Shown in pieces: positions 1,983 through 59,786 of a stretch of 64,000 nucleotides of DNA. The notes under the pieces were generated by a model. It saw only the letters and a program-made list of their open reading frames with translations, was not told the DNA's origin and did no database searches. This stretch comes from an uncultured Sediminibacterium sp. GTDB taxonomy: Bacteria > Bacteroidota > Bacteroidia > Chitinophagales > Chitinophagaceae. The stretch's first letter is position 1, and the number at the start of each line of letters is the position of its first letter. The stretch spans positions 68,279 to 132,278 of the forward strand of contig NZ_CAMLMJ010000009.1 of assembly GCF_946481145.1 (NCBI RefSeq), written 5' to 3'. The translations under genes and the position numbers were made by a program.

Positions 1983-2495
1983 ATGAGCAAACCAGTAGCA
2001 GGCGATTACCCACCTTATTTTGAAGGTTATATCAGTAAAATTGATGCTGAAAGTATTTCGGAGATAAAAAATAAATATGCCACAGCACTGGAAAATTTTT
2101 ATACCAGTTTGCCCGAAGCCAAAGCAGATTTCGCATACGCTCCCGGAAAATGGACTTTAAAAGATTTACTGCAGCATGTGGTAGATACAGAAAGGATTAT
2201 GTCTTATCGCCTGCTTAGAATAGCCAGAAACGATGCTACTCCCCTTGCTTCCTTTGATGAAAACAGTTATGCAGAACAGGCAGCCGCATCAATCAGATCA
2301 TTTGACGATATTAAGGAAGAGTTTATGGCAGTAAGAAAATCAACCAACCTTTTACTTCAATCTATCCAACCCACCCAATTTGATAATGCAGGTGTTGCAA
2401 GTGGTATGAGAATAACTGCAAATGCCCTCGTGTATATTATTTATGGACACATGATGCACCACCGGAGCATTATTGAGGAACGTTACTTGGGGTAG
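1983..2495 (+). CDS. DinB-family (DinB_2) putative metal-binding protein
   Basis: The 170-residue protein has the four-helix DinB/YfiT pattern. A first conserved His lies in LLQHVVDTER and a C-terminal pair lies in HMMHHRSIIEERY, placed as in the family's metal site. Family members are metal-dependent enzymes, often thiol transferases or hydrolases, but no substrate can be assigned here. It follows the S8 peptidase by 3 bases and is probably translated from the same message. Its stop codon TAG is also the first three bases of a tandem heptamer array (TAGACCA, TAGACCA, TGGACTA, TGGACTT). Confidence 0.85.
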   Translation: MSKPVAGDYPPYFEGYISKIDAESISEIKNKYATALENFYTSLPEAKADFAYAPGKWTLKDLLQHVVDTERIMSYRLLRIARNDATPLASFDENSYAEQAAASIRSFDDIKEEFMAVRKSTNLLLQSIQPTQFDNAGVASGMRITANALVYIIYGHMMHHRSIIEERYLG

Positions 2496-2520
2496 ACCAT
2501 AGACCATGGACTATGGACTT
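2493..2520 (+). repeat. Tandem heptamer array at a stop codon (TAGACCA type)
   Basis: Four 7-base units, TAGACCA TAGACCA TGGACTA TGGACTT, begin exactly at the TAG stop of the DinB-like gene. The array is partly self-complementary (CCATGG centre). The same units recur as a hairpin at 28202-28234. Confidence 0.75.
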
Positions 2521-2527
2521 CCTCAGA

Positions 2528-2562
2528 AAACCTAACACCTAATACCTAGCACCTAATACCTA
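2528..2562 (-). repeat. Tandem heptamer array (TAGGTNN) overlapping a gene end
   Basis: Read on the minus strand there are five units: TAGGTAT, TAGGTGC, TAGGTAT, TAGGTGT, TAGGTTT. The lipoprotein gene runs into the first unit, which encodes its last residues, and stops at the TAG that opens the second. The array therefore supplies the stop codon. Confidence 0.75.
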
Positions 2563-3344
2563 CCCCCCTCATAATCACAATTATCCTCATCGCAAAGTAA
2601 TTTTTGTAATAGCGGATTACTGAGTACGTCCTTATAATTCATTGCTTTACCATTTACCCAAATAGTTTGATAGACCAGCCTGATACCATGGCTATAATCA
2701 ACATACCAGTTAACGTGTTTGGTATAAAGGGGTTGAATAGGCTTACCGTCTGGCTTATGCCACCCATATATGGCTACACGGTCATTTTTCTCATATACTT
2801 TTAGGGCCGTACTAATAACCACATCTTTTTTAATGCCAGCGATAAGTCCTGCCCTACCCTTGCGCTGTCCTTCAATCATGAGATGATGTTGCCACATCGT
2901 AACGGTACTATCCCTGAACGCAAACATGGGTATGGGGTCCAGTTTCACTTTGGCTTGCTGGTAAATATCGTTGACCATTTTTCTGGTAGGTAAAAAGCAA
3001 TGGTACTGATCTGCTACTTTTTGTGCTGTCTGTGGCGTTAATGGTATCCTGGCCCAATCGGCATTGGTTCCGATTGATAGATAGTCGGGCATTACATAGT
3101 AAACCGCTTTGATTTTTTTACCCTTTACATCTTTTATTTCCGCACGAATAGGAACAAAATGGTTTAAAAAAGCGGGCATATTACCGGCAGACAATAATTC
3201 TAAGGCGATTGTTTCTCTCTGCTTCCATTGCTGGGCGGCAGTTTTCTGATAAAAAGAAGATCCAGTGGTGCCCTGGCTAATCTGCAAAGGGGTAATTGAT
3301 CTGCAGGATGCTAATAAAATAATGAGCAGCAAAAAACGGTACAT
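2553..3344 (-). CDS. Conserved hypothetical lipoprotein
   Basis: I do not recognise a named family. The 263-residue product starts with a short hydrophobic segment and a lipobox (LLASC, Cys at about residue 14), so it should be a lipid-anchored envelope protein. The body is soluble, with aromatic-rich stretches such as HVNWYVDYSHG and a possible metal- or ligand-binding set of His residues (MWQHHLMIEG). No repeats or membrane segments follow the lipobox. Its last three or four residues and its stop codon lie in a tandem heptamer array, so its C-terminus may have been reshaped by that repeat. It faces the DinB gene tail to tail. Confidence 0.6.
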   Translation of the reverse strand: MYRFLLLIILLASCRSITPLQISQGTTGSSFYQKTAAQQWKQRETIALELLSAGNMPAFLNHFVPIRAEIKDVKGKKIKAVYYVMPDYLSIGTNADWARIPLTPQTAQKVADQYHCFLPTRKMVNDIYQQAKVKLDPIPMFAFRDSTVTMWQHHLMIEGQRKGRAGLIAGIKKDVVISTALKVYEKNDRVAIYGWHKPDGKPIQPLYTKHVNWYVDYSHGIRLVYQTIWVNGKAMNYKDVLSNPLLQKLLCDEDNCDYEGGRY

Positions 3345-21539: not shown

Positions 21540-21626
21540 AAGAGGGGTTTTGAGTGTAACGGCTATTGCTCGTTAAAGTTACAGTTGCTGGTAATTACTG
21601 CAATGATTACTTTTGTGACGATCATT

Positions 21627-21715
21627 CCTCGGGGTGCTTCCCCCGCCTAAGGCGGGAGAGGCTGAGATAATACCCGTTGAACCTGAACAGGGTAATTCCT
21701 GCGAAGGGAAGGCGT
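21627..21715 (+). promoter_or_regulatory. TPP riboswitch (THI element)
   Basis: The core signatures are all present: CGGGGTGC at the 5' stem, CTGAGA at 21662-21667, ACCCGTTGAACCTGA, then GGGTAATTCCTGCGAAGGGAA. An extra GC-rich hairpin (CCCCCGCCT / AGGCGGGAG) fills the variable P3 arm. Binding of thiamine pyrophosphate should lower expression of the TonB receptor gene that starts about 75 bases downstream. I did not find an unambiguous terminator or anti-terminator in the spacer, so control may act at translation. Confidence 0.95.
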
Positions 21716-21788
21716 ACATTTTTTTGGTCGTACCTCTCTCCTATTAGCTATTTCCCTGTTCCCATTTGTAAACTTTTAAACGTTAAAA

Positions 21789-24173
21789 ATGAAAAAGTTT
21801 TTGGGAACAATGTCACTGACATTCCTCATCCTGCTCGCATCCGGGCAAACAAAAAACCTCCTAAGAGGCCGCATTACTGACAAAACCACTCACCAGACTA
21901 TTTCTGGTGCCCTGGTTAGTATTAACCAGTTCCAATCTACCTCAGACGAAGAAGGGGTATTTACCATTAGCTGGTCAGGCACTACGAAGCCGGTTTTAAA
22001 GGTAAAAAGTCTTGGTTACCGCGATTTCCAGTTAAACCTATCCTCAGGCACTTCCGACAAAATGCTGGAAATTGAGCTCGAACCCACCAGCCTGTTTCTT
22101 CAACCACTGGAAGTAAAATCCATTCGGGCGGCAGATAAAGCACCGTTTGCCAAAAACAATCTATCCAAAGATGAGATTGCTAAGGTTAACCTTGCTCAGG
22201 ATATTCCTTTCATACTTAACCAAACCCCTTCTGTTGTGGTGAATTCAGATGCAGGGAACGGTGTGGGATATACCGGCATTCGCATTAGGGGAACAGATGC
22301 TACACGCATCAATGTTACCCTGAATGGCATACCTTATAACGATGCTGAAAGCATGGGTACTTTTTTTGTAAACCTGCCCGACTTCGCCTCGTCTGTTAAC
22401 AGTATTCAGGTACAAAGAGGGGTTGGAACATCTACGAATGGAGCCGCAGCTTTTGGCGCAACTATTAATCTGTCTACCAACGAATTCAATGAAAAAGCCT
22501 ACACTGAATTCAACAATAGTTATGGTTCTTTTAATACCAGGAAACATACTTTAAAAGCAGGTACCGGTTTGATGGGTAAACATTTTACCCTCGATGCAAG
22601 GGTAAGTAGTATTCAAAGTGATGGATATATCGATCGCGCTAAAAGTGATCTTAAATCATTTTATGTTAGTGGCGCCTGGTTAAACCAACGCTCTTCTCTC
22701 CGCTTCAATGTTTTCAGCGGAAAAGAAAAAACCTATCAGGCATGGTACGGTGTATCAGCATCGTTGCTCAACACTGACCGTACCAATAACCCGGCTGGCA
22801 CTGAAAAACCCGGAACACCTTATGATAACCAGACCGACAATTATACCCAAACACATTACCAGTTATTCTTCAACCATGCATTTAATAGCCATTGGTCTTT
22901 TCAATCCGCTAGTTTTTTAACCCGTGGATATGGTTATTATGAAGAATACAAAGCGGGGCAACAATATTCAAAATATGGATTGCCCAATCCGGTAGTTGGT
23001 GGCGTACCTGTTACCAGTACCGACCTGGTACGCCAACGCTGGCTAAACAACTATTTTTATGGTCAGAATATTTCCCTACAATACCAAAAGAAAGGAAATG
23101 AATTTACCGTTGGCGGCGGATGGAATACGTATACCGGAGATCATTATGGCACACTTCCTTGGCTGCAAACAGGAACTGCACCGGCAGGATATAAATACTA
23201 TAACCACCCTGCAATTAAAAAAGATGCCAACCTATTTGCTAAGTGGCAACAACTGATTGTTTCGCATGTATATGGGTTTGTGGATCTGCAGTACAGACAT
23301 GTATCTCATAATATGACAGGCTTTCAAAATAATCCAACATTATTGGTTAACCGGAATTTCAATTTCTTCAACCCAAAACTGGGTATTACTTATCGAAAAA
23401 ATAGCTGGCAGGCTTTCCTGAGTTATGCCATCGGACAAAAAGAACCCAACCGTGATGATTTTGAAGCGGGTACAATTAACCAACCCAAAGCAGAGAAATT
23501 ACAGGATGTGGAAGCCGGTCTAGAATACAAAAAAAGTACTTATCAGTTTGCTGCCAATTTTTATTACATGCATTATGTTAATCAATTGGTGCTTACCGGA
23601 CAGATCAATGATGTTGGTGCATATACCCGTTTTAATGTGCCCAATAGTTACAGACTGGGGATTGAGTTACAGGGTACATGGAAACCCTCTTCCTGGTTAG
23701 CGGTTGGTGCAAACCTTTCCTTAAGCAGGAATAAAATCAAATCGTTCACTGAGTATACCGACAACTATGATTCCGGTAATCAGGATGCCGTACTAAGAAA
23801 CAATACAGACATTTCTTTCTCTCCCGGAACAATTGCCGGAACACAACTAATGTTTTACCCGGTTAAAGCACTTGAACTTGGACTGATCGGAAAATATGTG
23901 GGCAAGCAGTATATGGACAACAGCCAGTTAAGCAGAAGTGAATTGAAAGCATTTGCCACGCAGGATTTACGCATTATCTATAGCTTTAACAACAAAAACT
24001 TTAAACAGGTGCAGTTAACTGCTCAAATAAATAACCTGTTCAATAAACGCTACGAGCCGAATGGCTACAGTTATAGCTATACAAGTGGTGGTGTGTTTTA
24101 CACCGACAATGGCTATTACCCAATGGCAGGAAGGAACTTTGTGGTTGCGGTGAATTTGAAGCTGGGAGAATGA
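21789..24173 (+). CDS. TonB-dependent outer-membrane receptor, probably for thiamine or a precursor
   Basis: The 794-residue protein has a signal peptide (MKKFLGTMSLTFLILLASG), a carboxypeptidase-regulatory-like domain (about 26-100; GRITDKTTHQTISGALV) and a plug domain (about 110-220; IRIRGTDATRINVTLNGIPYND, then VQRGVGTSTNGAAAFG). A 22-strand type barrel ends in RNFVVAVNLKLGE. It moves a ligand across the outer membrane using TonB energy. The upstream TPP riboswitch points to thiamine or a thiamine moiety as the ligand (inference from regulation). No inner-membrane transporter or thi gene is next to it. Its TGA stop is also the first triplet of a heptamer array. Confidence 0.9.
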   Translation: MKKFLGTMSLTFLILLASGQTKNLLRGRITDKTTHQTISGALVSINQFQSTSDEEGVFTISWSGTTKPVLKVKSLGYRDFQLNLSSGTSDKMLEIELEPTSLFLQPLEVKSIRAADKAPFAKNNLSKDEIAKVNLAQDIPFILNQTPSVVVNSDAGNGVGYTGIRIRGTDATRINVTLNGIPYNDAESMGTFFVNLPDFASSVNSIQVQRGVGTSTNGAAAFGATINLSTNEFNEKAYTEFNNSYGSFNTRKHTLKAGTGLMGKHFTLDARVSSIQSDGYIDRAKSDLKSFYVSGAWLNQRSSLRFNVFSGKEKTYQAWYGVSASLLNTDRTNNPAGTEKPGTPYDNQTDNYTQTHYQLFFNHAFNSHWSFQSASFLTRGYGYYEEYKAGQQYSKYGLPNPVVGGVPVTSTDLVRQRWLNNYFYGQNISLQYQKKGNEFTVGGGWNTYTGDHYGTLPWLQTGTAPAGYKYYNHPAIKKDANLFAKWQQLIVSHVYGFVDLQYRHVSHNMTGFQNNPTLLVNRNFNFFNPKLGITYRKNSWQAFLSYAIGQKEPNRDDFEAGTINQPKAEKLQDVEAGLEYKKSTYQFAANFYYMHYVNQLVLTGQINDVGAYTRFNVPNSYRLGIELQGTWKPSSWLAVGANLSLSRNKIKSFTEYTDNYDSGNQDAVLRNNTDISFSPGTIAGTQLMFYPVKALELGLIGKYVGKQYMDNSQLSRSELKAFATQDLRIIYSFNNKNFKQVQLTAQINNLFNKRYEPNGYSYSYTSGGVFYTDNGYYPMAGRNFVVAVNLKLGE

Positions 24174-24270
24174 GAAATGAGAAATAAGAAATATGAAATA
24201 AGAAATAAGAAAGGAATTGTTAGATTTACTTTCTTATTTCTTATTTCTTATTTCATATTTCTTATTTATT
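24171..24270. repeat. Long heptamer hairpin between convergent genes
   Basis: The left array is TGAGAAA TGAGAAA TAAGAAA TATGAAA TAAGAAA TAAGAAA, starting at the receptor's stop codon. After a short spacer the inverse array follows (24229-24267) with one unit more than its pairing partner. The paired arms are 33 bp or longer. The opposite gene's stop (TAA, 24262-24264) lies inside the right array. The T-rich end makes it a plausible bidirectional terminator. Confidence 0.8.
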
Positions 24271-24567
24271 TTTTTCTTGCCACGCAAGCATCCCTCCTGT
24301 TACATTAACCAGGTTTTGAAATCCCATGGTACCGAGGATTAGGCATGCCTGGCCGCTGCGGTTACCGCTGCGGCAGTAGACATAGATGGTTTCATCTTTC
24401 AGGTCTTCAATTTCATCAACCTGCATGGTTTGTACTTTGCCTAAAGGCAATAGTATTCCACCGATATTAAATTCTGCATGTTCGTGAGGTTCCCGAACAT
24501 CTACCAGGTGAATTTGTTCTCCAGCATCCAATTTTGCTTTGAGGTCTTCAACAGTAATGGTTTGCAT
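24262..24567 (-). CDS. Single-domain rhodanese-like protein
   Basis: The 101-residue cytosolic protein is one rhodanese domain. The opening VEDLKAKLDAGEQIHLVDVREPHEHAEFNIGG gives the VDVRE..E motif. The active-site loop is CRSGNRS, with the persulfide-forming Cys. Such proteins carry or transfer sulfane sulfur; no specific acceptor can be named. It starts 15 bases after the PASTA gene and is probably in the same operon. Confidence 0.9.
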   Translation of the reverse strand: MQTITVEDLKAKLDAGEQIHLVDVREPHEHAEFNIGGILLPLGKVQTMQVDEIEDLKDETIYVYCRSGNRSGQACLILGTMGFQNLVNVTGGMLAWQEKNK

Positions 24568-28201: not shown

Positions 28202-28234
28202 AGACCATGGACTATGGTCTATGGTCCATGGTCT
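28202..28234. repeat. Heptamer hairpin (TAGACCA / TGGTCTA unit)
   Basis: AGACCATGGACTAT pairs with ATGGTCCATGGTCT around a 5-base loop, 21 bases after the LuxC-like gene. It shares its units with the array at 2493-2520, 25 kb away. The remaining DNA to the HtrA gene (28235-28476) holds no gene I can support. Confidence 0.7.
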
Positions 28235-31767: not shown

Positions 31768-31848
31768 AGCAGAAAGCCAATTAATGCACCAACAAGGCTT
31801 GCAGCTTGCAGCTTGTAGCATGCAGCCAAATTTCCCCGGACAACAATG
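31768..31848. repeat. Composite repeat with heptamer core, copy A
   Basis: The order is AGCAGAAAGCC, GCACCAACAAGGC, then heptamers GCTTGCA GCTTGCA GCTTGTA GCATGCA, then CAAATTTCCCCGGACAA. The first two blocks recur inverted at 36560-36592, and the last recurs inverted at 63947-63969. The heptamers between them differ from copy to copy. It lies just beyond the symporter stop codon. Confidence 0.65.
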
Positions 31849-36640: not shown

Positions 36641-36702
36641 CTTAAAAGAAATATTCCATTACCACATTTACGCTTGTTCATATTTTAATTAATAATAAAA
36701 AA

Positions 36703-36737
36703 AGCTTGCAGCCTGAAGCTTGTGGCCTGCAGCTATT
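36703..36737 (-). repeat. Heptamer array starting at the hydrolase stop codon
   Basis: On the minus strand the TAA stop is followed at once by TAGCTGC AGGCCAC AAGCTTC AGGCTGC AAGCTTT. The units match the core of copies A and B, and a T-run follows. Confidence 0.65.
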
Positions 36738-50100: not shown

Positions 50101-51207
50101 TTAATTCATTCGGTCTTTGATCATGGTAAGAAAATCATCGAAGAGATACCTGCTATCGTGTGGACCAGGTGTGCTTTCGGGATGGTATTGTACGCTAAAA
50201 GCGGGTTTATCTTTTATCCTGATGCCTTCAATTGACTGATCGTTCAGGTTGATATGTGTAATTTCTACATTAGGGTGATTTCTTACTGCTTCAGGATCTA
50301 CACCAAATCCATGGTTCTGGGTAGTTATCTCACACTGACCTGTAATGATATTTTTTACAGGGTGATTGAGTCCACGGTGTCCATGGTGCATTTTAAAAGT
50401 TGGTATTCCATTAGCCAATGCCAGCAGCTGGTGTCCAAGACAGATCCCAAAAACAGGTTTGTTTTCTGTCAGCAGGTCTTTTACAGTAGTAACTGCATAA
50501 TCCATTGCAGCAGGGTCACCAGGACCATTGGAAATAAAATATCCGTTCGGGTTAAACTCTTTCAGTCTGCTTAAAGGAGTTTTGGCAGGATGTACCCTGA
50601 TATGCGCGCCTCTGTCTACCAGGCACTGAAGGATATGTTTCTTTACACCGAAATCGAGCACAGCTACTTTTATAGGAGCGTTTACATCACCCATTTCATA
50701 TTCTTCAGTAGTGCTAACGGTGCTTGCAAGTTCAAGACCATCCATATCAGGCACGCCAGACAGTTGTTGTTTTAATTGTTCAACATCCAATATCTCTGAA
50801 GAGATGATACAGTTCATAGCTCCTTTGGTTCTGATATGAGCTACTAAAGCCCTTGTATCTACATTATCGATGGCTACGATATTGTTTTCCTGCAGGTAGG
50901 CATTAAGATTGTTATTTGCCTGGATGCGACTGTATTGTTCTTCCAGATTTCGGGCAATAAGACCATGAATTTTTACGCTGCTGCTTTCTACATCAGATTC
51001 CTTCACGCCATAATTCCCGATATGAACATTGTTCATGATCAGTACCTGTCCGGTATAACTTGGGTCGGTAAATACTTCCTGGTACCCGGTCATACCGGTA
51101 TTAAAACAAATTTCACCCGTAGTAGTACCAGTTTTTCCAAAAGCGTGTCCATAGAAGACATTACCATCAGCCAGTACAAGGATAGCGGGTTGTTTTGATT
51201 GGGGCAT
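50101..51207 (-). CDS. carA: Carbamoyl-phosphate synthase small (glutaminase) subunit
   Basis: CarA releases ammonia from glutamine for carbamoyl-phosphate synthesis, feeding arginine and pyrimidine pathways. The N-terminal domain carries ALVLADGNVFYGHAFG-type and FNTGMTGYQEVFTDPSY motifs. The class I GATase domain has the nucleophile Cys in FGICLGHQ and the His/Glu pair in QYHPESTPGPHD. Length (368 aa) is typical. The large subunit carB is not adjacent. It lies after rplQ, behind a terminator. Confidence 0.96.
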   Translation of the reverse strand: MPQSKQPAILVLADGNVFYGHAFGKTGTTTGEICFNTGMTGYQEVFTDPSYTGQVLIMNNVHIGNYGVKESDVESSSVKIHGLIARNLEEQYSRIQANNNLNAYLQENNIVAIDNVDTRALVAHIRTKGAMNCIISSEILDVEQLKQQLSGVPDMDGLELASTVSTTEEYEMGDVNAPIKVAVLDFGVKKHILQCLVDRGAHIRVHPAKTPLSRLKEFNPNGYFISNGPGDPAAMDYAVTTVKDLLTENKPVFGICLGHQLLALANGIPTFKMHHGHRGLNHPVKNIITGQCEITTQNHGFGVDPEAVRNHPNVEITHINLNDQSIEGIRIKDKPAFSVQYHPESTPGPHDSRYLFDDFLTMIKDRMN

Positions 51208-51298
51208 AATTGTTTACGGTTTTACGGTGCAAAAAAAAGAATTGTTGGTTAATCTTGGCAAATAAGTTTCACACAATTGGTTTTTATGGCCTGCACAT

Positions 51299-51330
51299 AA
51301 AAAAAGCAAGACAAATAAGTCTTGCTTTTT
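51299..51330 (-). terminator. Intrinsic terminator after rplQ
   Basis: A 12-bp stem AAAAAGCAAGAC / GTCTTGCTTTTT with a 6-base loop, 22 bases past the rplQ stop, closes the ribosomal-protein operon. Confidence 0.9.
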
Positions 51331-51352
51331 ATGTAGAAATTGTTCTTTCAAT

Positions 51353-51898
51353 TTATTCAGCTGCTTTATCAGTTGAAGGAGTCTCGGTAGCTGTAGCTTC
51401 AGCGGCAACAGTTTCAGTTGCTGGAGCTTCGGCGGAAGCAGTTTCTGCTTTTTTAGTAGTGGCACGGCTACGACGAGTTTTCTTAGCAGGTTCAGCAGCT
51501 TGTGCAGCGCTTTTACCATAAATTTCGTTGAAGTCTACCAGTTCGATCATCGCTTTTTCCGCATTATCGCCTGGACGAATACCAAGTTTCAGGATACGGG
51601 TATAACCACCTGGGCGGCTTGCTACTTTAGGACCAACAACGGTGAAAAGTTCTTTCACAGCGGTTTTGTCTTGCAGGTAGCTGAATACCACTCTATGCTG
51701 GTGCATGATGGTTTCTTTGCTATCAGATTTCTTTGTTTTGGTGATCAGTGGTTCAACGTAAGTTCTCAGTGCTTTAGCTTTAGCCAAAGTTGTAACGATA
51801 CGTTTGTGTGTGATCAGTTGACTAGCCAAATTGGCCAGTAATGCTTCCCTGTGTGCTTTCTTACGACCCAGGTTGTTGATTTTGTCTCCGTGACGCAT
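51353..51898 (-). CDS. rplQ: 50S ribosomal protein L17 with Ala/Thr-rich tail
   Basis: The first 120 or so residues are L17 (bL17): [24 protein letters not shown] near the start, then [12 protein letters not shown] and MIELVDFNE. The C-terminal extension of about 50 residues ([15 protein letters not shown], then Ala/Glu/Thr repeats) is low-complexity and presumably disordered, a feature of Bacteroidota L17. It is the last gene of the infA-rplQ cluster, after rpoA and a large hairpin. Confidence 0.97.
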
Positions 51899-51953
51899 GA
51901 CTTGTTGTTTTTATACCCTACACCGTGTCAGGAATTGCAGAGCGTTTAAGAAT

Positions 51954-52020
51954 AGCTTCTAGCCTTTAGCTTCTAGCTTCTAGCAATTTTCTAGAAGCTA
52001 GAAGCTGGCAGCTAGCAGCT
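51954..52020. repeat. Heptamer hairpin between rpoA and rplQ
   Basis: Two 30-base arms (51954-51983 and 51991-52020) made of TAGCTTC / TAGCTGC-type units pair with five mismatches around a 7-base loop. The 14 bp next to the loop are perfect. The array starts immediately after the rpoA stop codon. No T-run follows, so it is unlikely to be an intrinsic terminator. Confidence 0.8.
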
Positions 52021-53021
52021 TAATTATCTAAGTTATCTAATCCAAGCTTGTTCAGATCCATACCGAAGCTCAGACCGCGTTCAGTTAATACCTGCTCAAT
52101 TTCAGAGAGGGATTTCTGACCGAAGTTTCTGAATTTCATCAGGTCTTCCTGCTCGTATTGTACGAGTTCACTCAGACTGTTGATTTTTGCTGCTTTCAGA
52201 CAGTTGAAAGCACGTACTGAAAGATCTAAATCTTCAAGTGGTGTTTTCAATACTTTACGCAGTTGCAATACATGCTCATCAACTACATCTTCTTTCTTAT
52301 CTTCTTTGTTATCGAAAGTGATGTTTTCGTCGGTGATGATCATCAGGTGCTGGATCAGGATTCTTGAAGCCTGTTTAACAGCATCTTCAGGATGGATGGT
52401 TCCGTCAGTTGCTACATCGAGGATCAGTTTTTCATAATCCGTACGTTGTTCCACACGATAGTTTTCAATAGCGTATTTAACGTTCTTGATTGGAGTGTGG
52501 ATAGAATCGATGGCAATATATCCGAATGGAGCATCTTTAATTTTGTTTTCTTCAGCAGGGATATAACCACGACCACGTGAAATGGTAAGTTCGATATCCA
52601 TTTTTGCAGAAGAATCCAGGGTACAGATCACCAGTTCAGGGTTCATAACCTGAAAATGCTGGGATACCTCACCTAACATACCTGCAGTGAATTCAGTGCG
52701 GTTTTTGATAGAAAGGCTGATCTTTTCAGTGGCTACATCATGCTCCACATGCTTTTTAAAACGTACCTGCTTCAGGTTCAGGATGATTTCGGTTACATCT
52801 TCTGTAATACCTTTCATGGTAGCAAATTCGTGGTCTACACCTTCGATTTTGATACCTACGATAGCATATCCTTCCAAAGAACTCAGTAATACCCTGCGTA
52901 AGGCGTTACCTATGGTAAGACCATAACCTGGTTCTAATGGACGAAACTCAAATTGACCTTCAAAATCAGTTGCTTTTTGTAAAACGATTTTGTCGGGTTT
53001 CTGGAAGCTTAATATGGCCAT
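52020..53021 (-). CDS. rpoA: RNA polymerase alpha subunit
   Basis: RpoA dimerises to start RNA polymerase assembly. The N-terminal domain shows GYGLTIGNALRRVLLSSLEGYA and the later RGRGYIPAEENK. The C-terminal domain that contacts UP elements and activators has EDLDLSVRAFNCLKAAKINSL and FGQKSLSEIEQVL. Length (333 aa) is standard. It is flanked on both sides by long intergenic hairpins yet remains in the conserved order rpsD-rpoA-rplQ. Confidence 0.98.
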   Translation of the reverse strand: MAILSFQKPDKIVLQKATDFEGQFEFRPLEPGYGLTIGNALRRVLLSSLEGYAIVGIKIEGVDHEFATMKGITEDVTEIILNLKQVRFKKHVEHDVATEKISLSIKNRTEFTAGMLGEVSQHFQVMNPELVICTLDSSAKMDIELTISRGRGYIPAEENKIKDAPFGYIAIDSIHTPIKNVKYAIENYRVEQRTDYEKLILDVATDGTIHPEDAVKQASRILIQHLMIITDENITFDNKEDKKEDVVDEHVLQLRKVLKTPLEDLDLSVRAFNCLKAAKINSLSELVQYEQEDLMKFRNFGQKSLSEIEQVLTERGLSFGMDLNKLGLDNLDN

Positions 53022-53085
53022 ATTAAAACTTTATTTTTTACTTGATTGTGGCGGAACCCATTATTGGTTTCCGGATGATATGAGA

Positions 53086-53143
53086 GAGTAGTGAGTAGTC
53101 AGCAGTGAATATTTTACTCATTACTGACTACTAACTATTCACT
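53086..53143. repeat. Heptamer hairpin between rpsD and rpoA
   Basis: On the minus strand TAGTGAA TAGTTAG TAGTCAG TAATGAG begins exactly at the rpsD stop codon TAG, giving stops in all three frames. The inverse array (CTGCTGACTACTCACTACTCTC) pairs with it imperfectly. No T-run follows. Confidence 0.78.
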
Positions 53144-53747
53144 ATTTAGAATACAATTCGACGATCAGTTGTTCCTTGATGTTCTCAGGAACATTCTCGC
53201 GCTCAGGATAGGTAATGAAAGTACCTTTCTTCTCAGCTTCATTCCAATCAACCCAGCTAAACTTAGGATTTTTACCACGGGTTTTGCTTACGATAGAAGA
53301 ATTATCCGCGCTCTTTGGCTTATAAGCGATGATGTCGCCTGGCTTACACTGGTAAGAAGGTACATTCATGATTTCGCCATTAACGGTGATGTGCTTATGG
53401 TTAACCAACTGACGAGCTTCAGGGCGGCTTGCTGTTAATCCCATACGGAATACAGTGTTATCCAAACGAGCTTCCAGTAATTTGATCAGGTTTTCACCAG
53501 TAACACCTTTCAGACGAGATGCTTCTTCGAAAGTTTTACGGAACTGACGCTCTAATACACCGTAAGTGTATTTAGCCTTTTGTTTCTCTCTAAGCTGTAA
53601 TGCGTATTCACCAAGGCTTTTACGCTTACGGGCAGCACCATGCTGACCTGGAGGGTTGCTGTTCTTACCTAACCACTTCCCGTTACCCAGGATTGGTTCA
53701 CCGAAGATTCTGGAAATTTTGGTCTTAGGACCAGTGTAACGTGCCAT
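53142..53747 (-). CDS. rpsD: 30S ribosomal protein S4
   Basis: S4 (uS4) is a primary 16S rRNA binder and, in many bacteria, a translational repressor of its own operon. The 201 residues start MARYTGPKTKISRIFGEPI. The S4 RNA-binding domain (RLDNTVFRMGLTASRPEARQLVNHKHITVNG) and the ending ERENVPENIKEQLIVELYSK are typical. No zinc Cys cluster is present, so it is the C-minus form. It is in the expected place before rpoA. Confidence 0.98.
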   Translation of the reverse strand: MARYTGPKTKISRIFGEPILGNGKWLGKNSNPPGQHGAARKRKSLGEYALQLREKQKAKYTYGVLERQFRKTFEEASRLKGVTGENLIKLLEARLDNTVFRMGLTASRPEARQLVNHKHITVNGEIMNVPSYQCKPGDIIAYKPKSADNSSIVSKTRGKNPKFSWVDWNEAEKKGTFITYPERENVPENIKEQLIVELYSK

Positions 53748-53828
53748 TTTTGTTGTTTTGCGATTTTTTAATGACGATCCGGTATCTTAAAAATCTAAAA
53801 TTGATAACGAACCCTGTTAATATTTGAT

Positions 53829-53884
53829 GATGTCAGATGGCAGATGTCAGATTTTATTATATCTGAGATCTGCCATCTGACATC
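53829..53884. repeat. Heptamer hairpin between rpsK and rpsD
   Basis: Two 24-base arms (53829-53852 and 53861-53884) pair with one mismatch around an 8-base loop. The units are CAGATGG / CAGATGT. It lies 8 bases after the rpsK stop on the minus strand, with no T-run. The same unit forms the hairpin at 26542-26599. Confidence 0.8.
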
Positions 53885-53892
53885 TAATATCA

Positions 53893-54303
53893 TTATACTC
53901 TTCTCTGCTTAGGAGGTCTGCAACCATTGTGTGGCAATGGGGTTACGTCTTTGATAGATACAACCTCAATACCTGATTGAGAAATAGAGCGGATAGCTCC
54001 TTCACGACCAGCACCTGGACCTTTTACAAATACTTCTACACGCTTCAGACCAGCTTCCAATGCAACTTTTGCAGCATCAGCAGCAGCCATTTGAGCTGCA
54101 TATGGAGTGTTCTTTTTAGAACCTTTGAAACCCATTTTACCAGCACTGCTCCAACTGATAACCTGACCGGTTTTGTTGGTAAAGCTGATGATAATGTTGT
54201 TGAAAGTAGCAGAAATACGTACTTCACCAGCCGCATCTACTTTTACTACTCTTTTCTTGGCAGCAGCTTTTGCACTGTTCTGCGCTTTTTGTGGTTTTGC
54301 CAT
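53893..54303 (-). CDS. rpsK: 30S ribosomal protein S11
   Basis: S11 (uS11) lies on the 30S platform and touches mRNA in the E site. The 136 residues include the basic N-terminal extension ([18 protein letters not shown]), [33 protein letters not shown] in the core, [14 protein letters not shown] and the ending PPKQRRV. It follows rpsM after a 178-base spacer, unusually long for this pair. Confidence 0.98.
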
Positions 54304-54481
54304 TTTCGTTTTTTGAGGTAGTCACCCCGAAATTATCGGGGTCCGTTTAACAATGAAAAATTCCGCACCGGGCGGAAACCGCTACACTCTCCTTTCCACC
54401 TGAGGCGGACTATCCAAGCTGTAGAGGATTTTTATAACAGCATGATGCTGAAATGAATTCATTCCAGCATCATGGTATCAT
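54304..54481 (-). promoter_or_regulatory. Structured spacer between rpsM and rpsK
   Basis: This 178-base gap is unusually long for two adjacent ribosomal-protein genes. On the minus strand it holds CATGATGCTG..CAGCATCATG (54441-54474, right after rpsM), then TCCGCCTCAGGTGGA, TTCCGC..GCGGAA, and ACCCCGA / TCGGGGT just before rpsK. The hairpins could be a processing site, an autoregulatory leader for rpsK-rpsD, or repeats. I cannot tell which. Confidence 0.4.
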
Positions 54482-54862
54482 TTATTTCTTAGGAGCTTTC
54501 TTCTTACCGGCAACTGTTTTACGCTTACCTTTTCTGGTACGGCTATTCGTTTTGGTACGCTGACCACGAACAGGCAAACCTTTACGGTGACGTAAACCAC
54601 GGTAACAGGCGATATCCAGCAAACGCTTGATATTCATCGACACTTCACTACGCAATGCACCTTCTACCTTAAACTCATTGTTAATGATGTTACGGATAGC
54701 AGTCTGCTCATCATCATTCCACTCATGTACTTTCTTGTCAAAGTCAATACCAGCTTGTGTTAAGATATACTGAGCGGTTGCACGACCAATACCAAATATA
54801 TAGGTCAGACCAATTTCGCCTCTTTTGTTCTTTGGTAAATCAATACCGGCAATACGAGCCAT
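54482..54862 (-). CDS. rpsM: 30S ribosomal protein S13
   Basis: S13 (uS13) lies in the 30S head and contacts tRNA and the 50S subunit. The 126 residues start [26 protein letters not shown]. The motif [25 protein letters not shown] and the Lys-rich tail KKAPKK are standard. It follows rpmJ by 64 bases. Confidence 0.98.
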
Positions 54863-54926
54863 ATTCTGATTTTAATTTTAAACTTTAATACTGGTACTAT
54901 TAACCCTCTGTTAATAGCACTAAAAA

Positions 54927-55043
54927 TTATCCCTGACGTTGCTTATAACGGGGATTCTTTTTGTTAATCACGTACAACTTGCCCTTTCTCTTCACGATCT
55001 TGCAATCTGCACTACGCTTTTTGATAGAAGCTCTGACTTTCAT
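54927..55043 (-). CDS. rpmJ: 50S ribosomal protein L36
   Basis: This 38-residue gene is too short for most ORF lists. It reads [20 protein letters not shown] and ends [12 protein letters not shown], a clear L36 (bL36). Only one Cys remains, so it is the zinc-free form. It lies between infA and rpsM, the conserved order, with gaps of 66 and 64 bases. Confidence 0.95.
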
Positions 55044-55109
55044 TGCTTTATTATTTATCGCTTTACTGCTTCCGGCTTCCAGCTTAAGCCTTCAGCGTTC
55101 TGCAAATGT

Positions 55110-55328
55110 TTACTTGTATCGGAAAATGATCCTTCCCCTACTCAAATCGTATGGACTCATCTCAACCCCTACTTTATCCCCAGGTAAAATTCTGATGTAG
55201 TGCATCCTCATTTTTCCTGAGATGGTGGCCAGGATTTCATGGCCATTTTCTAACTTCACCCGGAACATAGCATTGCTCAGGGCTTCCAGAATTACTCCAT
55301 CTTGTTTAATCAGCGGTTGTTTCGACAT
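55110..55328 (-). CDS. infA: Translation initiation factor IF-1
   Basis: IF-1 is a single OB-fold that occupies the ribosomal A site during initiation. The 72 residues contain the family phrases [36 protein letters not shown] and [14 protein letters not shown]. It opens the cluster in this window. The usual upstream neighbours secY and map are not there; the next gene upstream is a large unrelated exported protein. Confidence 0.97.
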
Positions 55329-55344
55329 ACTATTTTTGGGGCTG

Positions 55345-55352
55345 CAAAGATA
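55345..55352 (-). promoter_or_regulatory. Possible -7 box of the infA promoter
   Basis: TATCTTTG on the minus strand matches TAnnTTTG, 16 bases before the infA start, so the leader would be short. No clear TTTG is at the ideal distance upstream. Confidence 0.4.
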
Positions 55353-55456
55353 TTAGATTGCAACTGAAATATGAAAAAAATGGGGGAAAAATTCCCAATT
55401 TTGTGGAAAATGAGCTAAAATGATGGCCCTGAACCCCTTATAAAGGCAAATATAAC

Positions 55457-58258
55457 TCATCTAAACAATGCCACAGGCAAAATAATCTCCCAATAATTGG
55501 CCTGGGTTATCCCGCTAAACTCCTGATCGAGCAAGCGACTATACCTCAATCCAAAACTCACAGGCTCCTGGTTCCACCACTTTGTATCAAACATCAACTC
55601 TCCCCCCACCGATCCAAAATAGAATTTTCGGCCCGTTCGGAGGCTTTTTCCCACTGCCTGGTCATAAAATACATTCATCCGCACCCGCTGAAAATAAACC
55701 AACTGCCCAAAACCCCAGTCCGGGTAAAACAGGGGAAAATGATAATTGACCCCTATTTTATACATCCTCGGGAAATTTACCGCCCGATACCCCCTAGCAA
55801 AAGGAAAATTATCGGAGAATATATATTGGTTCATGGTATCACGCTGCTGTATTGCCCCCGTTAAAACCAGGTTATGCGTGGAAGCCAGACCGGGCAAATA
55901 CAATGCCCCATTTAAAAGTAATTGGTTTGCTTCAGTTTTACCCATTGCCATCCTGTATCTGCCGCCAAGGGCAATACCCCACCGGGGGAATATATGCTTT
56001 ATTGCCCGTTGCGATTGGGCTGAATAGGACATACTAAGATCAAGGTAATCAACACTCGCATCCCTGAATAATCTTTTCGCTATGCCTGTCCAGCTAACCT
56101 TATTCTGATTAAAACTGGCCTGCAACAAGAGGTTTCTATAAGATTTGCCTGAAGTCAGGTTTAAAGGTAACCGTAAACCTGCGCGCCAGGAAAATTCATT
56201 CCAGGTTAAAGTAGTATCCCTGTTCAGTGCCCCCGAACGCTGCCAGGTATTCGATATTCCGATAACCGGCTGCAGGTAGCTGCTTCCTCCAATTATATCA
56301 GCACTCAATTTATGACTACCCTCATTCTCGTTATAGGTATAGGCCATTTCCGATGCATAAGTATTCAACACATTCTCGCCGTATAAAGTGAAAGAATACT
56401 CCGGACGGTCATAATAAGGCCTCCAGCTATGAATATTAAACGGCTTTGTAAACTTTTTATATGGTTTCGTTTCAAAATTTCTATCCCGGATATTTTCCGT
56501 AAAGCCGAAGCTTTGGGTTTGAAGGGTATTCCCCGTATATAAAGGAACTAATTCTTTTACCTGTGTTATTTTCTCCCATTTTGGCGCAAAGGCAGCCAGT
56601 CTGTACCCATCTGCCGTAAAAACTGAACCAACCAGCTTTTGTCTGGTTAATACCCCCTGATAAATCCCTGTAGGGTAAGTTGCCAGTCTAAATGGACCTT
56701 CCGATTGCTTTCCATCGTCAATCACTGCCCATAACTCATCACTACCATTACCTGTTGAAGTAAATAAAAGCGTATCACCCTGTATCTGCAGGTATCCAAT
56801 TACACGATTTGAAGGGTTAAGTATTTTTCTCTCCGTATTGCCCCGTTCATTAAACCAACTGATGCCCATATTCCCGTTCCTTTCACGGTATATAGTATAA
56901 AAGCCTTCGTCGTTTTTCGCATAGCGTGGATAAGAATAAATTCTGTCTGATGATGAAAGCAGTGTATCAGCTTCCCCGTTCAATACTTTTAATTGTACTA
57001 ATGCTGCACTTCCATCAGTGCGCATGTCAACTGCCAGTATCTTTTGCAAATCGTTGGATATATCCGGAGAAAACAACCGCGTTCCAGACCTCACCAGCTT
57101 TTCTGTTTTGGTTGAAAGATCAAATATTTTTAAGGCATTGTATTCCACATTTGCCCACCGTGTATCCGGCTGATAGGAAGTATAAACAAGCTTATTCTTT
57201 TTATAGGTAAAGTAGGGGTCAATCGCAATATCCCTAACCACTATTTGCTCCCTGTTTCCGTCAGCAGATATTTTCATGAAACGGGGAACTGCGGAATTAC
57301 TGTTATGCAATGCGAGTATTGAACCGTCTTCCATTAGGGTTGGATAACGATCGTTCACTACATTGTTTTTTTCAATAGCGGTTATCCATTCCGGTTCAAC
57401 TGTTTCCGTTTTTTTCCACTGGGTTCTGTAATAAGATAATGCATCATCTACAAACCGGTTAAAAGAAATACCGGTATGTTTTTTAACAGCTCCCTGAAAA
57501 GGATAGAGCAATGGTTTAAACCTTGCTGCGTCGTTGGTGACTTTTTCCCACAGATCATCTCCATATTGTTTTCTGCCATAGGCTACCAGCAGATAACCCA
57601 GCTCATAATGATTGGGAACATAATGCTGCAAAGATCCATTACGCAGCTTCATATAGCTATAGGCTTTATCGGATCGATAAAGTGACCTGTAACCATTAAA
57701 AAAAGCAGGTAATTTTCCCCTCCCCTGTTTTGTGAGCAATGTTTCATTATAAACAGCATCCCCTTCAAAAAACCAGTCCGGAACACTGGCTGCATTGGCT
57801 ACTGCCTGCCCCTCTTCTCCCAATATTACAGATGCCAGTTTTGAAAAACCTTTGTTGAAATTATTATACTGTTGTACATGTCTGTATTCATGTACTGCCA
57901 GGTTACTTATCCAATCGTAGCCTCCAAGTTCAAAAGCATTTTGCGGAGCTGTGGTATAAAACTCACTACGATAGGGTACCAATCCTACATAGGCATTTGA
58001 AAACAAAGTGCGATGCTGCAGCACTATATTAATTTTCCGCAACCCGCCTCCCAGACTATTTTTATTCTGCAGTTGCAACCCATGAATAATTGAGGCAATC
58101 TTTGCAGCCTGCTTTTCATTTCCGGCTGGGAAAATAATGCGTGCAGTATCCGTTTCAATCTGTCTCCATTGCTGCGAAGATGGGTTCCCTCCAAAACGCT
58201 GAGCACAGATTTTCATGGAAAAAAACAATACACATATCACTGCGCATACATACCGCAT
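55457..58258 (-). CDS. Exported HExxH metallopeptidase-like protein with propeller and beta-barrel regions
   Basis: I place the start at MRYVCAVICVLFF, which gives a clean signal peptide ending ICAQ. An ATG nine codons upstream breaks it. Residues 100-160 hold HEYRH (113-117) and, 38 residues later, FFEGDA (Glu155), matching a gluzincin zinc site. Residues about 280-550 form TolB/PD40-like repeats (NDRYPTLMEDGSILAL, YPRYAKNDEGFYTIYRERNG). The last 300 or so residues are amphipathic beta strands ending in the aromatic-rich NYWEIILPVALFR, as in an outer-membrane barrel. The 933-aa protein is probably an outer-membrane protease or maturation factor. I know no characterised member. Confidence 0.7.
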   Translation of the reverse strand: MRYVCAVICVLFFSMKICAQRFGGNPSSQQWRQIETDTARIIFPAGNEKQAAKIASIIHGLQLQNKNSLGGGLRKINIVLQHRTLFSNAYVGLVPYRSEFYTTAPQNAFELGGYDWISNLAVHEYRHVQQYNNFNKGFSKLASVILGEEGQAVANAASVPDWFFEGDAVYNETLLTKQGRGKLPAFFNGYRSLYRSDKAYSYMKLRNGSLQHYVPNHYELGYLLVAYGRKQYGDDLWEKVTNDAARFKPLLYPFQGAVKKHTGISFNRFVDDALSYYRTQWKKTETVEPEWITAIEKNNVVNDRYPTLMEDGSILALHNSNSAVPRFMKISADGNREQIVVRDIAIDPYFTYKKNKLVYTSYQPDTRWANVEYNALKIFDLSTKTEKLVRSGTRLFSPDISNDLQKILAVDMRTDGSAALVQLKVLNGEADTLLSSSDRIYSYPRYAKNDEGFYTIYRERNGNMGISWFNERGNTERKILNPSNRVIGYLQIQGDTLLFTSTGNGSDELWAVIDDGKQSEGPFRLATYPTGIYQGVLTRQKLVGSVFTADGYRLAAFAPKWEKITQVKELVPLYTGNTLQTQSFGFTENIRDRNFETKPYKKFTKPFNIHSWRPYYDRPEYSFTLYGENVLNTYASEMAYTYNENEGSHKLSADIIGGSSYLQPVIGISNTWQRSGALNRDTTLTWNEFSWRAGLRLPLNLTSGKSYRNLLLQASFNQNKVSWTGIAKRLFRDASVDYLDLSMSYSAQSQRAIKHIFPRWGIALGGRYRMAMGKTEANQLLLNGALYLPGLASTHNLVLTGAIQQRDTMNQYIFSDNFPFARGYRAVNFPRMYKIGVNYHFPLFYPDWGFGQLVYFQRVRMNVFYDQAVGKSLRTGRKFYFGSVGGELMFDTKWWNQEPVSFGLRYSRLLDQEFSGITQANYWEIILPVALFR

Positions 58259-58319
58259 GTAACTAAATTTTACAACAAGATACATAAACCAATCATCTGA
58301 TAAAGCGGATCAATGGCAA

Positions 58320-58357
58320 ATGGCTATTAGCTATTAGCCGTTAGCTATTAGCCATTG
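58320..58357. repeat. Heptamer array (TTAGCYA unit)
   Basis: Units TTAGCTA TTAGCCG TTAGCTA TTAGCCA follow one another, and CAATGGC at one end matches the inverse of GCCATTG at the other. The same unit is present at 63921-63951. It directly adjoins the dispersed palindromic repeat. Confidence 0.65.
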
Positions 58358-58520
58358 ATGCGAATAAATGGTTGAAATCTGCCAAAATGAGTAAATCAAT
58401 AGAGGGGTCCTTTGACGTCATTAAAAGTAGACTCATAAGAAATAACAGCCCTTAATCTTTTTTGGCTGCTTAGATAGAACATGGATTTATCATGATAATC
58501 ATGATAAATCTGCGTTCCAT
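58358..58520. repeat. Dispersed palindromic repeat, copy 3
   Basis: About 140 bases match the window-start copy in inverse orientation, ending in ATAGAACATG. A 13-bp palindrome, GATTTATCATGAT / ATCATGATAAATC, and the closing flank TGCGTTCCAT follow (58472-58520). The copy at 31598-31669 has the same flanks but another core. Confidence 0.72.
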
Positions 58521-58578
58521 TTTCTGCTCTTATGTAATTACAATCCTTGAGTCGCCTTGATAATTTTTCAGTACATAA

Positions 58579-58603
58579 CAAAAAAAAGGGTACTGTTTTC
58601 AGC
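58579..58603 (-). terminator. Intrinsic terminator of the conserved hypothetical gene
   Basis: On the minus strand GGGTGCTG pairs with CAGTACCC (one G-U pair) and is followed by eight T, 22 bases past the stop codon. Confidence 0.85.
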
Positions 58604-58624
58604 ACCCTTTTCAATTGTTTATTC

Positions 58625-59029
58625 TTACATCGGATCTCGTGTCAAATGTATTTTAGTCATGTCTAAATAGTGATTTTGCAACTGGTGCACATAATGAACA
58701 TCCGGGTGATGGCGTCTGTCTTCCCTGTACCACATTTCAATTTTTGAAAAATCATTTGGCTGGGGTGTTACCAAACGAAACGATCCTTTCATATACTTCA
58801 CCGATCCATCTTCGTTTGACTGTTTTGCAAAGCTCAGTTTTGCAAGTGCATCATCGTTAAGCGGAAGTGGATGCAAATGATCGGTGGTAAACCAAAATTC
58901 CTGTACATCAGTTTGTACACAAACCTGTTTTTCATCACCGTTTAGGCGAACCACTTCACCCTCCCACATTTTTCCTTCATATTCCGCCATTACGTAGTCC
59001 CCGATTTTAATGTCGCTGAATTTAATCAT
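58625..59029 (-). CDS. Conserved hypothetical protein (134 aa)
   Basis: The protein has two parts. Residues 1-60 look like a small SH3- or Tudor-like barrel (IKIGDYVMAEYEGKMWEGEVVRLNGDEKQVCVQ). The rest carries the motif MWYREDRRHHPDVHYVHQLQN, rich in His, Arg and Tyr. I recall similar proteins across Chitinophagaceae and related groups but no function. There are no signal or membrane segments, so it is cytosolic. It has its own terminator and appears monocistronic. Confidence 0.6.
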   Translation of the reverse strand: MIKFSDIKIGDYVMAEYEGKMWEGEVVRLNGDEKQVCVQTDVQEFWFTTDHLHPLPLNDDALAKLSFAKQSNEDGSVKYMKGSFRLVTPQPNDFSKIEMWYREDRRHHPDVHYVHQLQNHYLDMTKIHLTRDPM

Positions 59030-59089
59030 ATGGCAATTCGTTTTAGGAGCATAAGTTAAGGATTTTTTGGATTGGGGGGAAATCTGGGA

Positions 59090-59284
59090 GTACGGAAGTC
59101 AGGGAGTCCGAGAGTCCGGGAGTCCGAAAGAATTTTTACAAACCCATACCTCAGTGCCTCTTTGTGTCTTCAGTGGCAATCTTCACCGGACTTTCGGACA
59201 TCCTGACGAAGGAAGGACGGACTTTCGGACTTTCGGACTCCCGGACTAATTTAATTTGCCACTGAAGACACAGAAAGGCACTGA
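59090..59284. repeat. Two interleaved inverted repeats (A-B-A'-B')
   Basis: A is a run of GAGTCCGG-type octamers (59093-59128), with its inverse A' at 59186-59246 (shared GTCCGGGAGTCCGAAAG). B is a 29-base arm (59151-59179, containing TTGTGTCTTCAGTGGCAA) with inverse B' at 59256-59284, two mismatches. The order A-B-A'-B' cannot form both stems without a pseudoknot. No gene lies in 59030-59294. Confidence 0.75.
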
Positions 59285-59294
59285 AGGAGTTGGG

Positions 59295-59675
59295 TTATTT
59301 TTTGGGGGTCTTTTTTTTGAGGGCAGCTTTTTCCAGATTTTCCAGCACCCTGAACTTAACGATCATGGTAATAAGCTTTACCGGTAAAGGTTTATCCAGC
59401 GGAAATTGAATGGCCCCCTTTGAAGTAACGTACCCTTCCAGTTCCTTTTTAAAATTCGACACACCTGAAGACGATGGATAAAAACCAATATGATGCTTCA
59501 TTGCAGCAAAATATACCAGGTTACCTTCCTGAAAAAAACAGGGCATCCCGTAACTGATTTTCTCCGTTGCTTTCGGTGCGGCCTTCTGCACTAGAGCACG
59601 CATCCTAATAAGTAACGCCTGCTTCTCCGGTGGAAAATCTGCAATGTAGGCATCTATGTTTTCGTAGGCTTTCAT
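59295..59675 (-). CDS. DUF1801 (YdhG/frataxin-like fold) protein
   Basis: The 126-residue cytosolic protein matches the DUF1801 family: IDAYIADFPPEKQALLIRMRALVQKAAPKATEKISYGMPCF, then LVYFAAMKHHIGFYPSSSGV. A Bacillus relative (Fra/YdhG) has a frataxin-like fold and has been described as an iron chaperone. Whether that holds here is not shown by the sequence. The C-terminus is Lys-rich. The next gene upstream on this strand is hmgA, separated by a perfect 31-bp inverted repeat. Confidence 0.85.
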   Translation of the reverse strand: MKAYENIDAYIADFPPEKQALLIRMRALVQKAAPKATEKISYGMPCFFQEGNLVYFAAMKHHIGFYPSSSGVSNFKKELEGYVTSKGAIQFPLDKPLPVKLITMIVKFRVLENLEKAALKKKTPKK

Positions 59676-59681
59676 TGAGGG

Positions 59682-59786
59682 GTGTGAATTGTCAATGGTG
59701 AATGGTGAATAGGAATGTTTAGATTGTAAAATACAAAAATAATACTCCTAATTCTCTATTCACCATTCACCATTGACAATTCACAC
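59682..59786. repeat. Perfect 31-bp heptamer hairpin after hmgA
   Basis: The arms 59682-59712 and 59756-59786 are exact inverses of each other around a 43-base spacer. On the minus strand, after the TAG stop of hmgA, the units are TGTGAAT TGTCAAT GGTGAAT GGTGAAT AG. The stop codon overlaps the arm by one base. Confidence 0.85.

Follow-up and report, generated by a model that had tools for sequence, protein, structure and literature searches.

Why should the stop codon of a ribosomal protein gene also be the first triplet of a tandem heptamer array, and why should that array form one arm of a hairpin? We considered this question in a 64,000-nucleotide stretch of a contig from an uncultured Sediminibacterium sp. 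(the window), in which the minus-strand gene rpsD (53142..53747) has the 3′ end ...TCTAAATAGTGAATAGTTAGTAGTCAGTAATGAG. Its stop TAG opens the series TAGTGAA-TAGTTAG-TAGTCAG-TAATGAG, with TAG, TAG, TAG and TAA read from the sequence at +0, +7, +14 and +21. The original prediction had grouped this series with stop-anchored arrays at 2493, 24171 and 2528-2562 and beside the stops at 36736, 52020 and 59786, and direct reading located every one of them. The array sites of the window are as follows.

53083..53143, minus strand: hairpin 3′ of the rpsD stop, with 5′ arm 53143-53115 (TAGTGAA-type heptamers), loop 53114-53112 and 3′ arm 53111-53083
53142..53144, minus strand: rpsD stop TAG, the first triplet of the array, read from the sequence; S4 domains of the gene by Pfam
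53829..53888: GATGTCA-unit hairpin in the gap between rpsK (S11) and rpsD; the S. goheungense counterpart has GATGTCT units and paired changes
51953..52020: TAGCTTC/TAGAAGC-unit hairpin in the rpoA-rplQ gap, adjoining the rpoA stop at 52020
2493..2562: TAGACCA and TAGGTNN arrays that fill a gap between convergent genes and provide both stops; missing in S. goheungense
24169..24274: AATAAGA-type unit hairpin in a gap between convergent genes, overlapping both stops; fold -43.8
59683..59785: GGTGAAT-unit hairpin beside the stop at 59786; fold -59.4; partly another unit class in S. goheungense
36702..36734: AGCTTGCAGCCTG array of period 14, adjoining the stop at 36736
28203..28233: TGGTCTA/TAGACCA-type array, not stop-anchored; S. 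goheungense has no array
31797..31826: GCTTGCA array, not stop-anchored; S. goheungense has no array
58312..58356: GCTATTA array, 5′ of a gene start and without a stop anchor; the L001 alignment has no counterpart
59097..59247: facing period-8 arrays (GGAGTCCG-type and CGGACTTT), octamers in the same layout; only a partial counterpart in S. goheungense

The hairpin after the rpsD stop is predicted to fold as RNA at -26.4 kcal/mol, with a z of -4.7 over the initial 90 nt of the gap. Within 2493..2562, the stop TAG at 2493-2495 begins the TAGACCA units, and the minus-strand gene 2553..3344 terminates within the TAGGTNN array, which it enters out of phase (...GGT AGG TAT TAG). This gene is stopped one unit into the array, and its translation ends ...EGGRY*, a C-terminus unlike that of the S. 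goheungense ortholog, which is without an array there. The stop TGA at 24171-24173 falls within a TGAGAAA array. For the arrays at 28203, 31797 and 58312, which the original prediction had not listed, the nearest upstream stops lie about 22, 37 and 270 nt away.

Abundance of heptamer arrays in the window and its relatives

With a lag-7 score of at least 12, the window contains 10 arrays, compared with a mean of 0.0 in ten dinucleotide shuffles; a looser cut gives 15, of which 14 are intergenic. Apart from lag 7, the range 4 to 13 yielded arrays at lags 8 and 12 only (two each), and lags 14, 16 and 21 gave 5, 1 and 2. We pooled the window with 800 kb of the 3.9 Mb genome of S. goheungense (G1, or G001), 400 kb of the 7.3 Mb genome of isolate DXS (G2, or G002) and 187-200 kb from each of four other genera (G3-G6, or G003-G006). 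Genes were called with a simple hexamer caller built for this analysis, the start positions of which are uncertain. RpsD is 98% identical between the window and S. goheungense (L001/G001), and the window is collinear with G001:C1 almost end to end, in pieces of 75-83% DNA identity.

Lag-7 arrays numbered 64 in 400 kb of S. goheungense and 84 in 400 kb of isolate DXS, with 0.0 expected from two shuffles of each sequence. Again most were intergenic (S. goheungense, 117 of 127 over 800 kb; DXS, 95 of 102 over 400 kb), and the density of intergenic arrays ranged among genomes from 0.5 to 23.8 per 100 kb, G001 and G002 being array-rich and G003 and G004 array-poor. Two nearly perfect arrays in G001:C1, one of ATTGTCC near 149020 (about 11 copies) and one of GAGTAGT near 164562 (about 15 copies), resemble recent expansions.

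Seven units were exactly common to the window and G1 (0.8 expected) and eight to G1 and G2 (3.0 expected, with 8 also the maximum of 300 shuffles); G1 and G6 had three in common (0.6 expected, shuffle maximum 3), and G1 and G5 none. Exact sharing was thus clear between close relatives only. The idea of a family-wide unit vocabulary was set aside: of 117 family genomes, 22 contained a GTAGTGAG-type pattern, yet 12 contained its reversed control. The pattern TTAGTCATTAGTCATTAG was found in none of six genomes.

Arrays, stop codons and reading frames

Do the arrays favor gene ends? The predicted excess at stop codons was borne out in the window and the pieces of six relatives, where an array lay within 10 nt of 83 of 180 stop-type gap ends, compared with 51.9 in 1000 simulations that placed the array block randomly within the same array-bearing gap, none of which reached the observed value. 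When gene-overlapping arrays were removed (39 of 161 gaps), 42 of 128 stop-type ends still had an array at this distance (28.5 expected; 0 of 1000 runs as high). For a distance of no more than 3 nt from the stop, the count was 60 against 28.6. Start-type ends showed no excess (25 of 142, 25.4 expected). In the window, G1, G2, G5 and G6, arrays were found in 39 of 169 convergent gaps and 18 of 209 divergent gaps (Fisher p 1.4e-4), or 39 of 198 and 20 of 246 with G3 and G4 included. Of 102 tandem-gap arrays, 57 were closer to the stop and 42 to the start; G5 and G6 taken by themselves had 9 of 13 closer to the start.

A serious explanation of these distributions, and the main rival of the reading that we set out below, is that the arrays are neutral debris: period-7 slippage and fold-back copying would act anywhere between genes, selection would purge the arrays that damage genes, and stop ends would be the sites at which arrays are tolerated. 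The strongly variable density among genomes fits this explanation, as do long, perfect arrays that look recent, such as the 15 copies near 164562 of G001. It is harder to reconcile with the lack of an excess at start-type ends, which border genes too, or with the greater frequency of arrays in convergent than in divergent gaps. We regard neutral debris as possible, at clearly less than even odds.

The phase of the unit relative to the stop, which had been expected to be fixed, is not: the distance from the stop to the array start spanned -22 to +42 and formed a broad hump at about 0 to +8. The stops overlapped by an array, or at most 3 nt before its start, were TAG in 20 cases, TGA in 16 and TAA in 13, compared with 850 TAA, 291 TAG and 273 TGA among all called genes in five of the seven samples. 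Because stop usage at arrays differs from that of all called genes, we deduced that the stop is often provided or altered by the array.

Stops in all three frames, the property from which the prediction had started, proved to be a tendency near stops and not a defining feature. On the sense strand, 51 of the 83 stop-near intergenic arrays closed every frame, compared with 18 of 83 on the antisense strand; among 129 far arrays, 50 did so on one strand and 48 on the other, and with shuffled unit columns the share was 33%. The sense bias was local. Discordant counts were 20:4 for arrays overlapping a stop and 22:6 for those 0-10 nt after it, and the bias was absent from arrays 11-50 nt off (11:8) and beyond (33:29). 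Closure of the three frames follows from the period of 7, and any period not divisible by 3 suffices; the same argument is already in print for TAACTGA repeats (PMC4679880). Lags 5, 10 and 11 would close the frames equally well and are hardly used, and the preference for 7 is therefore left unexplained by frame closure. The local sense bias would be accounted for by a filter that removes protein-lengthening arrays, as the neutral explanation also holds, and the stop signals within arrays are mostly a by-product of the seven-letter spacing.

Might the arrays nevertheless have been selected as a combined three-frame translation stop and mRNA hairpin, as originally proposed? The excess at stop ends and the sense-strand closure beside stops would be expected of such a module, and so would the observation that the 5′ arm closes more frames than the 3′ arm in 50 of 90 facing pairs, with the reverse in 19 of 90. 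There is no fixed phase, however; 32 of the 83 stop-near arrays leave at least one frame open, and the equally serviceable periods of 5, 10 and 11 are hardly used. The overlap of arrays with stops is, moreover, partly circular, as an ORF is by definition closed by the first stop it meets. We find this proposal scarcely credible.

Pairing, polarity and turnover of the hairpins

The hairpin half of the original prediction fared better. A strict inverted partner within 200 nt was found for 8 of the 15 window arrays (looser cut), for 56 of 84 arrays in the first 400 kb of G1 and for 27 of 102 in isolate DXS, with a null of 0-1.6% from shuffled places. Where such a partner exists, the predicted hairpins are strong (86 pairs; median fold z -6.0, 87% below -3); by the same strict-partner test, many arrays, most of those in DXS among them, do not count as hairpin arms.

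The facing pairs also have a direction. In 12 of the 15 unit classes seen at least twice (53 pairs, which are not independent events, as the unit classes have common ancestry), the same unit always formed the 5′ arm; the largest of these classes were GAGTAGT (18/18), AATGGTG (9/9) and AAATAAG (5/5), with cases in divergent gaps included. Three classes with seven pairs (AATGGCT, AAAGCTT and AAAACGT) were of mixed polarity, and 30 classes were met once. The 5′ arm was purine-rich in 68 of 90 pairs. Because polarity is mostly fixed, copying within a class seems more plausible than a separate origin at each site. Co-evolution of the two arms of a locus within G1 was also considered and proved weak: the partner of a locus matched slightly better than the arms of other loci, and was strictly the best match in 3 of 30 and 4 of 7 S. 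goheungense loci.

Dispersed intergenic stem-loops, within operons too, are familiar as REP/BIME elements, and the present hairpins might be REP-like elements mobilized by a Y1 (RAYT-type) transposase. They are dispersed intergenic palindromes of mostly fixed polarity, their unit classes recur, and Y1_Tnp matches were present in five of six genomes. Unlike REP/BIME, they have no single conserved palindrome; the arms are tandem heptamers, and units and copy number vary by site. The number of Y1_Tnp matches was uncoupled from array density (eight in the array-poor G003; four, one of them over the cut-off, in G001 and seven in G002, both array-rich), and five of nine regions around Y1_Tnp genes contained no lag-7 or lag-8 array. 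We therefore rejected mobilization by RAYT, which seems very improbable.

Could the hairpins be standard intrinsic terminators that happen to consist of repeats? Their position 3′ of stops and between convergent genes would suit this function, and by eye L204 and L209 show T after a short GC stem at the corresponding position behind rpsK. Nevertheless, only 8.6% of 93 ends had at least six T in the ten nucleotides after the 3′ arm, compared with a background of 10.2%, and none of the 14 terminator-like sites listed at 51000-60000 overlaps a heptamer hairpin. Because no T-run follows, the arrays are not standard terminators. The genes rpsK, rpsD, rpoA and rplQ usually form one operon, and with hairpins standing between them, strong termination would be unlikely unless each gene has a separate promoter. 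We consider this reading improbable.

How stable are the hairpins between species? Eight array gaps could be aligned between the window and S. goheungense. Stems are predicted in both at five of them (24174, rpoA-rplQ, rpsD-rpoA, rpsK-rpsD and 59676; fold energies -26 to -59), and at three the arrays occur only in the window. In the rpsK-rpsD gap, three units have changed at one same position and the opposite arm has changed too, such that all three pairs are kept; in the rpoA-rplQ gap, TAGCTTC corresponds to a GAGCTNT-like unit in S. goheungense. Over the five sites, two-sided changes kept 13 pairs and broke 4, and one-sided changes left 14 positions still pairing and broke 29, which is mixed support for selection on pairing.

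We then compared 20 loci of the genus, those among 30 fetched whose RpsD was at least 90% identical (L190 is G001 itself), together with the window. In the rpsK-rpsD gap, 5 of 21 rows had significant lag-7 repeats and stems with z<-3, built of GATGTCA/T, GGTTTGT or ACGAAGN units, 4 had other stems with z<-3, and 12 had weaker stems or none; owing to the short gap, the z of L204, L208 and L209 includes the stem of a downstream leader, and an automatic step that misplaced the rpsK stop in L204 and L209-L219 was not relied on for these rows. At the position of the heptamer hairpin of other species, L193 has another palindrome (CCCTGAGTGAGCGAAGCGAATCGAAGGG...). In the rpsD-rpoA gap, which was too short in two loci, 4 of 19 rows had lag-7 repeats with stems of z<-3 and a further 2 had other stems below this limit; L196 has a lag-7 repeat with a weak stem there.

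A wider set of rpsD-rpoA gaps, from the family and beyond, comprised 66 sequences (the window and 65 of 80 loci), of which five were dropped, one with too short a gap and four without a recognized rpoA start. Among the remaining 61, lag 7 was significant (p<=0.01) in 10 gaps (9 with new shuffles), compared with 0-3 for lags 5, 6 and 8-11. Of these ten, L033 and L041 are stemless, and L022, L037 and L044 have stems that fall short of significance (z -0.9 to -2.2). One record, L036, is titled as a Phycisphaerales MAG and has an rpsD 75% identical to that of the window; it is perhaps a misbinned contig.

Because the hairpins are missing from many relatives, they must be dispensable. Their absence, and the many changes that break pairs, are what neutral debris would predict; the stems kept at five of eight aligned sites despite a change of unit, and the mostly fixed polarity, are not. 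In Sediminibacterium, close relatives have the hairpin, a hairpin of other letters or none at the same ribosomal-protein gene ends, and this makes the genus a natural test. If selection acts on the stem, its function is directly testable; if not, the genus offers a clean case of period-7 mutation pressure halting at gene ends.

Proposed origin and known heptamer systems

We observed the arrays and their hairpins, the excess at stop ends, one polarity in most classes, different units at one site and some paired changes. From these we propose, with a probability of about one half, that heptamer repeats of the STRR or SSR kind, often in facing pairs from which DNA or RNA could fold a long stem, act as rapidly renewed 3′-end stem-loops. 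Slippage, together with copying from a small vocabulary in each genome, probably creates and renews the units, and the second arm is probably an inverted copy of the first. Arrays would settle at the 3′ ends of genes, at positions that in relatives hold another stem-loop or none, most likely serving as stem-loops at mRNA 3′ ends or between cistrons (stability, pausing or partial attenuation). The period of 7 would supply a free stop in each frame, so that an array reaching an open frame would be harmless, and this filter may explain the sense bias beside stops. A stronger form of the proposal is that of a self-renewing regulatory hairpin, in which the overall design (a position next to the stop, arms of heptamers, a polarity that is mostly fixed and a stable stem) is kept while period-7 slippage replaces the letters wholesale and rebuilds both arms, leaving the element invisible to sequence and covariance searches; we consider this form doubtful.

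The original prediction knew of no named element of this sort. The kind has in fact been named, as short tandemly repeated repetitive sequences (STRR) and as heptanucleotide SSR or LSSR, in PMC2670836 and PMC4692102, and the present repeats share the characteristics of these groups: 7-bp tandem units, mostly intergenic, at many loci and with hairpin potential. The STRR of filamentous cyanobacteria (PMC2670836) are likewise 7-bp and intergenic, with hairpins possible both inside an operon, as between hupS and hupL, and 3′ of genes; a part in stability, coupling or termination was suggested for them, with no settled role. Our arrays are from another phylum; a single genome has several classes of unit, and the unit can differ between species at an orthologous site.

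In Xanthomonas and Nostoc, according to PMC4692102, GGGAATC and GGGGA(T/C)T heptamers lie on the sense strand within 50 bp of stop codons, some overlapping the stop; two Xanthomonas genomes contain 70 and 75 inverted pairs in convergent orientation, and GGGAATC-type repeats are rarer than expected between divergent genes. Location near stops and convergent pair polarity are thus common to both systems. Those units are G-rich quadruplex units, one type per study, whereas none of the common classes in our unit lists has a GGG tract, and our arrays also occur in divergent gaps (18 of 209). TAACTGA direct repeats, according to PMC4679880, occur in Beggiatoaceae, Cyanobacteria and five Bacteroidetes, and their presence at ORF ends was attributed to three-frame stops; they lie mostly just 5′ of start codons and are almost never inverted, with one inverted case. 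Heptamers with stops in three frames are common to both, whereas our arrays favor stop ends and form facing pairs; TAACTGA is missing among the common units listed, and start ends have no array excess. The 2007 survey of LSSR by Mrazek, as cited in PMC4679880 and PMC4692102, found heptamers to be the commonest long unit and proposed polymerase slippage; as so cited, it dealt with repeats generally and not with facing pairs.

Our search of open-licence papers found no account of heptamer hairpins in Chitinophagaceae. What looks new, judging from the sequences compared, is that the same stop-adjacent sites (rpsK-rpsD and rpsD-rpoA) in related Chitinophagaceae are occupied by hairpins made of different heptamers, by other stem-loops or by neither, and that 12 of 15 recurring classes have one polarity.

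Two further RNA elements were noticed. At the gathering score, an Rfam 15 search of the whole window returned a TPP riboswitch and tRNA only and no match to a hairpin, with just sub-threshold look-alikes at 53700-53900. The TPP riboswitch (21620-21726, plus strand) lies 5′ of a TonB-dependent receptor-like gene at 21789. On the minus strand 5′ of rpsD, at about 53757-53820, is a leader-like element with a conserved stem, covarying arms and the loop ATTTTAGATTTTT, with which a downstream TAAAAAATC could pair as a pseudoknot. Its loop is present in 20 of 31 sequences, with no Rfam match at the gathering score, and the element is also found in L190, L191, L193, L194, L196, L204, L205 and L208-L219; it is possibly an S4 autoregulatory leader.
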